A DNA stretch of 59,609 nt, taken from Bacteroidota bacterium. Its GTDB lineage: Bacteria; Bacteroidota; Bacteroidia; Chitinophagales; Saprospiraceae. Numbering within the stretch: the first letter of the stretch is position 1; each line of letters starts with the position of its first letter. Shown piece after piece: positions 4,317-6,100 of the stretch. Position numbers and translations under genes: made by a program. The stretch is from assembly GCA_029572935.1 (NCBI GenBank), contig JAKQHM010000044.1:1-59609 (forward strand). Reading direction: 5' to 3'. Under the pieces are notes generated by a model. The model was given only the letters and a program-made list of their open reading frames with translations. It ran no database searches and had not been told where the DNA came from.

Positions 4317-5339
4317 TTAGAGTTGATTTTTTAAATAGAATGGCCTGATGAGTTGGCTGATTTTGTCGTTCTCAATAAGGAATCCGTCATGTCCATAGAG
4401 GGATTCAATTTCCGCGTATTCGGCTTCGGGTATATGTTTGGCCAGAAAGATCTGTTCCTCTGTAGGAAAGAGCAGGTCTGAAGATATCCCGATGACAAGC
4501 GTTTTGGCTCTGATCCATCCCAACACCTCTTCTGCAGATCCTCTGTTTCTACCTATATCATGACTGTCCATCATTTTGGTCAGATACCAGTAGGAAAAAG
4601 CATTGAATCTGGAAGCAAGTTTATCCCCCTGGTATCTTTGATAAGAGGAAGCTCTGAGCGGACCCAGGTTGCCGGAATGCTGTTCAGCCTGGGTTTGCTG
4701 GTACGTGTGGTAGCTTCTGTAACTCAGCAGAGCCGCAGCCCGGGCAACTTTGAGTCCCTCCAGGCCAGCATCTTCATTTTCCTCCGGCCAGGTCGGGTCC
4801 ATTTCAATCGCCATTCTCTGTGTTTCATTAAAGGCCACGCCCCAGGGTGAATGTATGGCGTTGGTGGCCAGCAATACCATGTGTTGATGCAATCCCGGCG
4901 CGTGGACGGACCACTCCAGTGCGGTCTGCCCACCCAGAGATCCGCCGATCAGGGTGTGTATTTTTGAAATTTTGAGTTCGTTCCGGAGCAGTTCCAGTGC
5001 GCGCACCACATCCCGGATCGTGAGCAGGGGAAAATCCCGGTAATATCTTTTTGCGCCTTCCTTGCGCATGGAAAGAGGCCCGGTAGAACCGTAGCATGAA
5101 CCCGGAATATTGGCGCAGATGATAAAGTAATTCTGGGGGTCAAACAGTTTTCCAGTTCCGACCATTCCTGGCCACCAGTCGGAAGCGTCTGCACTGGCAG
5201 TCAGTGCATGACAGATCCAAACGACCGGTTTGTGGCTTGAATTGGAGGGCTCAGAAAGATAATAACGGATGTCCAGTGCATCCAGCCTGCCTCCCTGTTC
5301 TGTTTCAAAGCTATGTTTCCATTCAAATGTTTTTTCCAT
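4317..5339 (-). CDS. metX: Homoserine O-acyltransferase (MetX, acetyltransferase type)
   Basis: Alpha/beta-hydrolase-fold enzyme that acylates homoserine, the committed step to methionine by direct sulfhydrylation. In 340 residues it shows the nucleophile elbow GGSLGG with S134, the catalytic Asp D288 in ISSDLLFP and the His H317 in YGHDGF, plus the family-specific WWPGMVG and IPGSCYGSTGP segments. MetX proteins can use acetyl- or succinyl-CoA, and this cannot be settled by inspection. It starts an operon with hom. Its 5' region of about 230 bases contains the nine-codon leader ORF at 5567-5596, which implies attenuation control by cysteine and/or methionine supply. Confidence 0.94.
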   Translation of the reverse strand: MEKTFEWKHSFETEQGGRLDALDIRYYLSEPSNSSHKPVVWICHALTASADASDWWPGMVGTGKLFDPQNYFIICANIPGSCYGSTGPLSMRKEGAKRYYRDFPLLTIRDVVRALELLRNELKISKIHTLIGGSLGGQTALEWSVHAPGLHQHMVLLATNAIHSPWGVAFNETQRMAIEMDPTWPEENEDAGLEGLKVARAAALLSYRSYHTYQQTQAEQHSGNLGPLRASSYQRYQGDKLASRFNAFSYWYLTKMMDSHDIGRNRGSAEEVLGWIRAKTLVIGISSDLLFPTEEQIFLAKHIPEAEYAEIESLYGHDGFLIENDKISQLIRPFYLKNQL

Positions 5340-5459
5340 TCTTTAAGCTTTATATACTTTTCTAATTTGATTAAAGATGTCTCGTCGCTTTGGTTCGACC
5401 GGTACTTTGTTTTTTTGATGTGTGTATAGAGAATGAATCAAAGGATGCACAGGAAAATA

Positions 5460-5566
5460 AATTTATAAATTGGATGAATGGAAATGAGAACGCCTGTAAG
5501 CACAGACCTCAGAATTCAAACAGCAGAAAAAATAAGTTGAAAAAATCTAAAAGGACACCTGCTGTC
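5460..5566 (-). promoter_or_regulatory. Candidate attenuator region between leader ORF and metX
   Basis: Read on the minus strand, the DNA just after the leader stop contains ACAGCAG, which pairs with CTGCTGT about 40 nt later (7 bp, U-rich loop). Next come a GTCTGT-GCTT-ACAGGC stem-loop (6 bp with one wobble) near 5494-5509 and a 12-nt AT palindrome AATTTATAAATT at 5460-5471. Alternative short pairing of GACA with TGTC directly after the leader stop is followed by T-runs. These are the ingredients of a ribosome-position-sensitive switch, but no single strong intrinsic terminator stands out, so the mechanism is inference. Confidence 0.35.
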
Positions 5567-5596
5567 TTATTGCATGCAACAACAACAATGCATCAT
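5567..5596 (-). CDS. Nine-codon Cys/Met-rich leader peptide (MMHCCCCMQ) upstream of metX
   Basis: On the minus strand the codons ATG ATG CAT TGT TGT TGT TGC ATG CAA TAA encode M-M-H-C-C-C-C-M-Q and stop. Four consecutive cysteine codons and three methionine codons in nine is extremely unlikely by chance. The ORF lies 227 bases upstream of the homoserine acyltransferase start, on the same strand, in a region with no other gene. Known precedent: poly-cysteine upstream ORFs act as cysteine-responsive attenuators in mycobacteria, and amino-acid-rich leaders control biosynthetic operons widely. Here ribosome stalling at Cys (or Met) codons could control entry into metX-hom. A CAT codon precedes the Cys run; no Shine-Dalgarno is seen, as is normal in Bacteroidota. 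Confidence 0.7.
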   Translation of the reverse strand: MMHCCCCMQ

Positions 5597-5719
5597 TACC
5601 GGAAGGGTAAAAGGAAAAAAAGGAAAGGGTGTGGACAGGTTTGCCAAAGAGTTCTTTTGCGCGTTCATTTTCTTTTTCATTGTCGTAACCAATTTATATT
5701 TCTCAGGCTCACATGAAGC

Positions 5720-6100
5720 TGAGTAGGTGGGCACCATAATTCAGTTTGATTTCTCATACCGGATTGGGTTGCCGGAGGGTCATCGAGCCTATTCTCTCTC
5801 CTCGCTCTTTATAAATCCGCTACCTTCAATTTTTTGAGGCAAATCGAATTTCGTACCACAATGATAGAATGCTTTGGGCTTTCGAGGGTATCCCACGGCT
5901 TTTAAAATTTTGTTAAGTATTGCGGGATTAATTTTTTTTACATTTTTTGTTTTGAGTTATTTCACTTGTTTTCAATTCATTACCACACATGGCTGATTTT
6001 TTAAAAGGCCTTGTTTGTTATCATGGAGAACTGGATTATTTTCGGATCAGCGCCAGGTGAGTAGTTTTCCGTAAAGTAGGGTCCGGAAGGGATTATGCTC
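5720..6100. other. Intergenic region, no gene seen
   Basis: This is the distal part of an approximately 545-bp divergent gap between the metX leader and the beta-propeller gene at 6144. It is AT-rich with T-runs near 5926-5955. I see no ORF with coding character, no tRNA fold and no riboswitch consensus; neither strand shows a SAM-I type core. It presumably holds the divergent promoters. Confidence 0.5.

Follow-up and report, generated by a model that had tools for sequence, protein, structure and literature searches.

Among the systems closest to the locus described here, the mgtA/mgtL leader of Salmonella is said to combine within one leader an ion or metabolite signal with codon-specific ribosome stalling at proline codons; it reportedly responds to Mg2+ and proline, carries no SAM aptamer and belongs to the gamma-proteobacteria, in all of which it is unlike the present case. 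The poly-cysteine short ORFs of mycobacteria are reportedly leaderless, going by the title of a 2020 report by Canestrari. Poly-cysteine leaders of Actinobacteria are described, in the accessible part of PMC1262725, as short ORFs with a run of cysteine codons near the stop codon that lie upstream of cysteine genes and have no conserved terminators, and M. smegmatis genes with such leaders are described as being under translation attenuation (PMC13236596, accessible part). In M. tuberculosis, the first target of a B12 riboswitch is a translated upstream ORF, uPPE2, that is needed for ppe2 and acts as a relay through overlapping stop and start codons; the accessible part of the source (PMC11260477) mentions no amino-acid run in that ORF. 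In Rhodobacterales, the uORFC-8-2 motif before cysS is a predicted ribosome-mediated attenuator with two tandem cysteine codons and a U-run such as an intrinsic terminator would have, and the accessible part of PMC8632094 mentions no riboswitch. The author of an earlier note on this DNA knew of no such system in the phylum, but leader-peptide attenuation has been suggested in a flavobacterium (PMC9723704) and leader-like short ORFs have been described in Bacteroides thetaiotaomicron (PMC7366714), in the accessible parts of both papers. For a SAM riboswitch that gates a cysteine leader, no description was found in titles and abstract openings among the literature matches listed, a scope that leaves most subscription papers aside. 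Each component has precedents, and the union of SAM riboswitch and cysteine leader is a new version of familiar systems.

Within the window (the whole stretch of 59,609 nucleotides that was analysed), the minus strand carries, in order, a predicted SAM-I aptamer, a 10-nt spacer, a leader ORF with the C-terminus MMHCCCCMQ, an interval of 227 nt, metX and hom (Table 1). Like other SAM-I riboswitches (RF00162), the aptamer scores above the curated cut-off and lies upstream of methionine genes; unlike them, it has the start codon of the leader ORF as the first element past P1, where others have a terminator or the gene under control. With the actinobacterial leaders this group shares a cysteine run near the stop codon, 29 of 45 leaders in the window's family (f1) ending their run right at it, and a place upstream of cysteine or sulfur genes; it differs in the fusion to a SAM riboswitch, in the targets metY, cysH and metX, in the methionine codons beside the run and presumably in phylum. 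Unlike the leaderless ORFs of mycobacteria, the ORF here follows an aptamer of 98–142 nt, and 37 of the 45 leader loci have the promoter-like motif TAnnTTTG upstream of that aptamer. The resemblance to uPPE2–ppe2 is that an upstream ORF is the riboswitch's first target, and that to uORFC-8-2 is the tandem cysteine codons of a predicted ribosome-mediated attenuator. The window and 44 further f1 loci, of 149 read, show one mark of such attenuators, a putative short ORF ahead of the gene in which codons for an amino acid of the pathway stand in a row.

Table 1. Features of the predicted SAM-I aptamer, leader and metX–hom locus in the window.
Feature	Position	Strand	Basis
Weak promoter −7 candidate TATCATTG, 5/6 fixed positions of TAnnTTTG	5859..5866	-	motif match
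Second 5/6 TAnnTTTG candidate TCGATTTG	5847..5840	-	motif match
Predicted SAM-I (S-box) riboswitch aptamer, RF00162; J3/4 ~2 nt short of model consensus	5691..5817	-	Rfam 53.5 bits vs cut-off 44.4
P1 helix 3' side and 10-nt spacer before leader ATG; proposed leader ribosome-binding region	5681..5700	-	position; SAM binding would occlude it
Predicted leader ORF, 37 codons + stop, MKKKMNAQKNSLANLSTPFPFFPFTLPVMMHCCCCMQ	5567..5680	-	sequence; matching placement and Cys run in 45/149 family SAM loci
Codons for M M H C C C C M, putative site of ribosome stalling	5573..5596	-	sequence; Cys runs and neighbouring Met recur in leaders; stalling inferred
Stretch from leader to metX, expected to hold the expression switch	5340..5566	-	family loci on average more paired than shuffles 0–75 nt past stop; window z +0.95
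metX-like homoserine O-acyltransferase, 340 aa	4317..5339	-	NCBIfam and Pfam matches
hom, homoserine dehydrogenase, 419 aa	3041..4300	-	Pfam Homoserine_dh E 3.5e-51; NCBIfam NF004976 326 bits vs cut-off 205

The earlier note had read M-M-H-C-C-C-C-M-Q-stop as a nine-codon minus-strand ORF and a candidate attenuator. These codons are indeed encoded at 5596..5567, and the distance of 227 bases from the leader stop codon to the metX ATG at 5339 is correct; the nine codons, however, are only the tail of a 37-codon frame that opens 84 bases further upstream, and the SAM-I aptamer, which had been overlooked, lies directly upstream, 10 nt from the leader ATG, so the element does not stand alone. The nine-codon ORF as a complete unit is ruled out, since the frame is open up to 5680 and the starts in relatives match. 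A second in-frame ATG lies at 5737, within the aptamer; 5680 was chosen as the leader start because the leaders of relatives begin at the matching place. Of all ATG-initiated ORFs no longer than 100 aa, on either strand of the entire window, this frame alone contains CCCC. Among 20,000 dinucleotide shuffles of the 351 nt from aptamer to metX, one contained an ATG ORF with CCCC at any place, and none contained one beginning within 22 nt of the aptamer.

The metX-like protein has MetX_acetyl as its top NCBIfam match (E 1.8e-94; 316.7 bits, under the curated cut-off of 500) and also matches Pfam Abhydrolase_1. The hom gene starts 16 nt past the end of metX, and the two are likely one operon. A related-locus search with metX returned a single locus, in Rufibacter sediminis (51%), and a metX match at E 1e-20 was missing from eight nearly complete genus-mates; at this threshold metX is found in one of nine genus genomes, counting that of the window, and the locus may have been gained here or lost in the others. 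In the window's own assembly (67% complete) a close metY was not found, the top match having 42% identity.

A search for SAM riboswitches gave matches in 33 of 60 relatives, 159 of 298 genomes of the family, 210 of 298 of the order and 314 of 395 of the phylum; these sets overlap and include the window genome. We read 288 loci, comprising 149 in f1 (134 genomes), 70 elsewhere in the order and 69 outside it. The order and phylum matches were read in part (those 70 and 69 loci), selected partly by score, and the family matches in G244, G291, G172, G315 and G164, with matches beyond those listed, were left out. Flanks extended about 1000–1500 nt downstream of the aptamer, and less at contig ends. 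A fused leader was defined as an ATG at most 22 nt past the aptamer that opens an ORF of 6–90 codons with at least three consecutive cysteines. One locus (L072) was too short for this scoring, hence 287 were scored, and a further leader locus, L312 (G105), stands outside the counts. Gene classes rest on motif tests that were checked with family models on eight proteins; in L062, aptamer and metY are 862 nt apart, possibly with another gene before metY.

Fused leaders were found in 46 of the 287 scored loci, against 0.1 expected from shuffles. All but one belong to f1 (45 of 149 SAM loci read, from 43 genomes and 27 genera), where the ATG lies 2–19 nt past the aptamer (median 10) and the ORF has 26–64 codons with at least three consecutive cysteines; the remaining one lies in family f18. 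A cysteine leader, fused or separate, was found at none of the 69 loci examined beyond the order. By gene class within f1, the leader is present at 38 of 47 metY loci, at all four cysH loci and at one of 23 metX loci, namely that of the window. It is absent from metH (0/17), hom (0/7) and metB-like loci (0/34), 0/58 together; the remaining classes gave 2/14 for other genes (OsmC-like and peroxiredoxin), 0/1 for an aspartokinase-like gene and 0/2 without a class. Leaders thus stand at 42 of 51 metY or cysH loci vs 3 of 98 of all others (Fisher p 1.5e-24, with loci counted ignoring relatedness). MetY takes up sulfide and CysH reduces sulfate. The idea of a cysteine/methionine leader for metX–hom therefore survives in part: the cysteine-run ORF recurs in relatives, but metX is an exception as its target, the usual ones being metY and cysH.

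Nine of the 47 f1 metY loci lack a run of three cysteines. Three of them (L081, L083 and L110) have an ORF at the leader position with CC near its end, and three more, without an ATG within 60 nt, come from the three genomes of genus g108. In each of these three genomes (L099/L054, L104/L094, L126/L077), metY follows a riboswitch without a leader and cysH has a leader behind another SAM riboswitch, which indicates that the leader goes with the sulfur step and not with one gene. Separately, one g108 genome (G205) has an additional leader before an OsmC-like gene (L152), and the f18 locus, outside the window's family, has its fused SAM riboswitch and cysteine leader before an OsmC-like gene as well (L237). 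Within f1, a SAM riboswitch and a leader with nine consecutive cysteines precede a peroxiredoxin assigned by family model (L156); in family f23, a SAM riboswitch without a cysteine leader precedes a gene that resembles a peroxiredoxin by look only (L264), and in two further f23 loci (L265, L267) the gene behind a SAM riboswitch has what we take, from its motif, to be a cysteine desulfurase-type start. A metY locus of family f17 (L017) has the nine-codon ORF MTYLRCRMR 12 nt past its SAM aptamer; this ORF is arginine-rich with one cysteine and is perhaps a different leader.

Two other explanations of the cysteine runs were considered and rejected on the loci read. One is an RNA-only TGY repeat without coding meaning; (TGY)4 or longer occurred in 2 of the first 134 non-fused loci, both of them metY loci with a distal cysteine ORF, and TGT and TGC are mixed. 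The other is that poly-cysteine leaders are spread over genomes without regard to SAM; TGYx5 followed by a stop codon is present in 125 of 298 family genomes, with some of the matches in the window's own genome, but of 30 such loci fetched, only five had an in-frame ATG within 200 nt. Among these five, a SAM-like motif with a downstream metY was found only in L312 and L317.

Turning to the leader peptide itself, the longest cysteine run per leader spans 3–9 residues across the 45 f1 leaders. Cysteine is encoded by TGT 205 times and by TGC 74 times, and this mixing points to the amino acid being kept, not one RNA string. Leaders of near relatives (18 pairs, 15 loci) differ by 127 non-synonymous and 61 synonymous codon changes; at codons with cysteine on either side the corresponding figures are 17 and 10. 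Of those 17, six lie one residue outside the run in genus g70, one lies at a run edge and ten are in the hard-to-align genus g21. At the level of these alignments, the leader peptide drifts outside the cysteine run and the run stays. The earlier note had proposed such a check on relatives, and for the run its expectation was borne out, with the cysteine-run leader ORF conserved and the remaining peptide drifting. Its further suggestion that cysteine and methionine codons belong together is also upheld: methionine falls within four residues before the run in 27 of 45 leaders, against 2.2 expected, and immediately before it in 18 of 45 (10 of 27 at −1 when one leader per genus is taken), and is rare in the leader body (13/1049).

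The family aptamers are classed as SAM-I, and the window copy is an atypical, predicted aptamer. It aligns over the full RF00162 model (1–108) with a 2-nt gap at J3/4, which belongs to the conserved SAM-pocket core. In a pattern test for that core, 44 of 45 family leader loci fit, with the window as the sole exception, as did 256 of 288 over all loci. On average, A and T make up 95% of the P1 helix in leader loci; the value is 76% for the remaining f1 loci and 67% for the sister family f20. Within 100 nt upstream of the aptamer, 37 of the 45 leader loci and 66 of 102 leaderless f1 loci have the promoter-like motif TAnnTTTG, described for a flavobacterium (PMC9723704, accessible part); one of the 45 leader loci has it between aptamer and gene. 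With the motif upstream of the aptamer and rarely inside, a single transcript should span aptamer, leader and gene, and a metX transcript beginning downstream of 5567 is disfavoured on these motif positions in relatives. In the window, no perfect TAnnTTTG was found just upstream of the aptamer or from there to metX.

Together, these features lead us to favour, with moderate confidence, a two-input attenuator that is gated by SAM, senses cysteine and methionine supply, and controls metX–hom. We infer that SAM stabilises P1 and so closes the leader start region. When SAM is bound, the A/U-rich P1 would be stable and cover that region, no ribosome would enter and the operon would be off, much as an untranslated trp leader keeps its operon off. 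When SAM is low and cysteine plentiful, the ribosome would complete the leader and leave at the stop codon, a structure beginning at the stop would form and expression would be low. With little SAM and a shortage of Cys-tRNA (or Met-tRNA), the ribosome would linger on the run and hinder the post-stop structure, and transcription would continue into the gene. The gate would thus compute an AND of low SAM and low cysteine or methionine; that cysteine shortage raises expression is suggested by cysH being a target. The downstream step may be an intrinsic terminator, Rho or another device, and the window has no visible structure for it.

How far the window copy itself still works in this way is a matter of its own. 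Possibly, though on balance we doubt it, this copy is decaying, with a leader that persists, an aptamer that no longer binds SAM and a downstream switch that is gone; such decay would be compatible with an attenuator in the family. The shortened J3/4, the weakest best-hit E-value (1.4e-11) among the 159 family genomes with a match, the lack of a perfect promoter motif and the unusual target metX all fit decay, and so does the 227-nt post-leader stretch, which has no structure above chance (z +0.95; of 200 shuffles, 162 equalled or exceeded its stability). The pairings ACAGCAG/CTGCTGT and GTCTGT/ACAGGC, to which the earlier note had drawn attention, can form within this stretch, but it folds no better than the shuffles. 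Against decay stand the intact 37-codon frame, the full Met/Cys run and the usual spacing, a combination that the shuffles did not reproduce in 20,000 trials. Given the atypical aptamer and its E-value, it is for the family that the mechanism has its best support; the window copy may be altered or decaying.

At the family level, the RNA past the leader is structured close to the stop codon. Over the first 0–75 nt, the mean paired fraction in the 45 f1 loci is 0.56–0.66 vs 0.40–0.53 in shuffles, and in the final 30 nt before the gene it is 0.31–0.33 vs 0.52–0.53; the gap from leader stop to gene measures 96–227 nt. Taken across all 52 leader loci, fold z averages −1.34, and 16 of the loci fall below −2. 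A terminator-like hairpin with a T-tail follows the leader in 12 of 45 f1 loci (3.1 expected) and is absent from 33. No general signal was found for pairing of the cysteine codons with downstream RNA (mean z −0.06; p ≤ 0.05 in 4 of 52), which leaves the classical competition between 1:2 and 2:3 pairings without support. An alignment of 5 sequences from g70, with 36 pairs, showed no double compensatory change at any base pair, and among these close relatives base pairs are kept by one-sided changes only. The 30 nt before the gene contain 2–7% G at f1 metY loci with or without a leader, and 13–16% at metX and metH. We rejected this G-poor zone as an attenuator feature, as leaderless metY loci have the same zone; the open, G-poor gene start, a trait of metY with or without a leader, argues against hiding of the gene's own ribosome site.

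A sub-form of the two-input attenuator would use Rho, with post-leader RNA loading Rho and the ribosome held on the cysteine run covering the loading site; we consider it a tentative and rather unlikely version. Its model is E. coli tna, in which a held ribosome covers a Rho loading site. Rho sites are usually not highly paired, and the excess pairing over 0–75 nt past the stop speaks against this version. In its favour, most runs end at the stop codon (29/45), 33 of 45 loci have no intrinsic-terminator-like site past the leader, the first 15 nt past the stop are rich in C (0.29) relative to G (0.15), and the accessible part of PMC1262725 offers Rho as a weak prediction for the actinobacterial cysteine leaders.

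It is improbable, in our assessment, that SAM alone is sensed and that the cysteine-run ORF is a relay whose translation protects the transcript or hands on ribosomes, with no sensing of cysteine or methionine. A riboswitch-controlled relay of this kind does exist, since M. tuberculosis ppe2 requires uPPE2 translation (PMC11260477, accessible part); uPPE2, however, overlaps ppe2, whereas the leaders here end 96–227 nt before their genes. Moreover, a mere relay needs no cysteine run, and runs of 3–9 cysteines recur in 27 genera, mostly at metY and cysH and at 0/58 metH, hom and metB-like loci. Least probable is a metal or redox sensor in which the run acts as nascent peptide and not through hungry codons, as in Bordetella pertussis CruR, which senses copper via a CXXC in the uORF product and controls Rho termination (PMC9426467, accessible part): two leaders before OsmC-like genes and one before a peroxiredoxin would suit it, but no shared arrest motif was seen, run length varies from 3 to 9 while the remaining peptide drifts, 42 of 45 family targets are metY or cysH, and the methionine enrichment fits amino-acid supply.

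Returning to the two-input attenuator, the sister family f20 presents its parts in another arrangement. A terminator-like hairpin lies near the aptamer end in 39 of 42 f20 loci vs 3 of 47 f1 metY loci, all three of the latter leader loci. Six of ten f20 metY loci have a separate cysteine leader, in every case behind the terminator-like hairpin (L162, L168, L175, L241, L252 and L253). With the f20 leader placed behind the riboswitch terminator, two sensors would stand in series in both layouts. In folds of five of these loci (L162, L175, L241, L252 and L253), a small hairpin ATGCC...GGCAT starts at a methionine codon just past the cysteine codons. Within f1, the metX ATG lies 7–13 nt past the aptamer in 5 of 22 leaderless metX loci; with the gene's own start codon at the spot that the leader ATG otherwise occupies, this position probably controls translation starts. 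A reading on which we are evenly divided makes a sensor the direct target of the riboswitch: the SAM aptamer would admit the ribosome to the leader, the ribosome there would read Cys-tRNA and Met-tRNA, and one RNA would be an AND gate over product, sulfur donor and end amino acid, fused in evolution from the tandem layout still seen in f20.

A regulator is usually regarded as either a riboswitch or a leader-peptide attenuator; in these loci a single RNA repeatedly unites the two, ahead of the enzymes through which sulfur enters methionine and cysteine. If the proposed mechanism is true, an aptamer for a metabolite would govern a ribosome that in its turn gauges the supply of amino acids, which would make a compact logic element of natural origin, and one RNA would integrate the end product, SAM, with the supply of cysteine and methionine. 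In the sister family f20 the two parts lie next to each other, so that it can readily serve for comparison on how the fusion arose, and this lineage of Bacteroidota gains a testable circuit for the control of sulfur metabolism.
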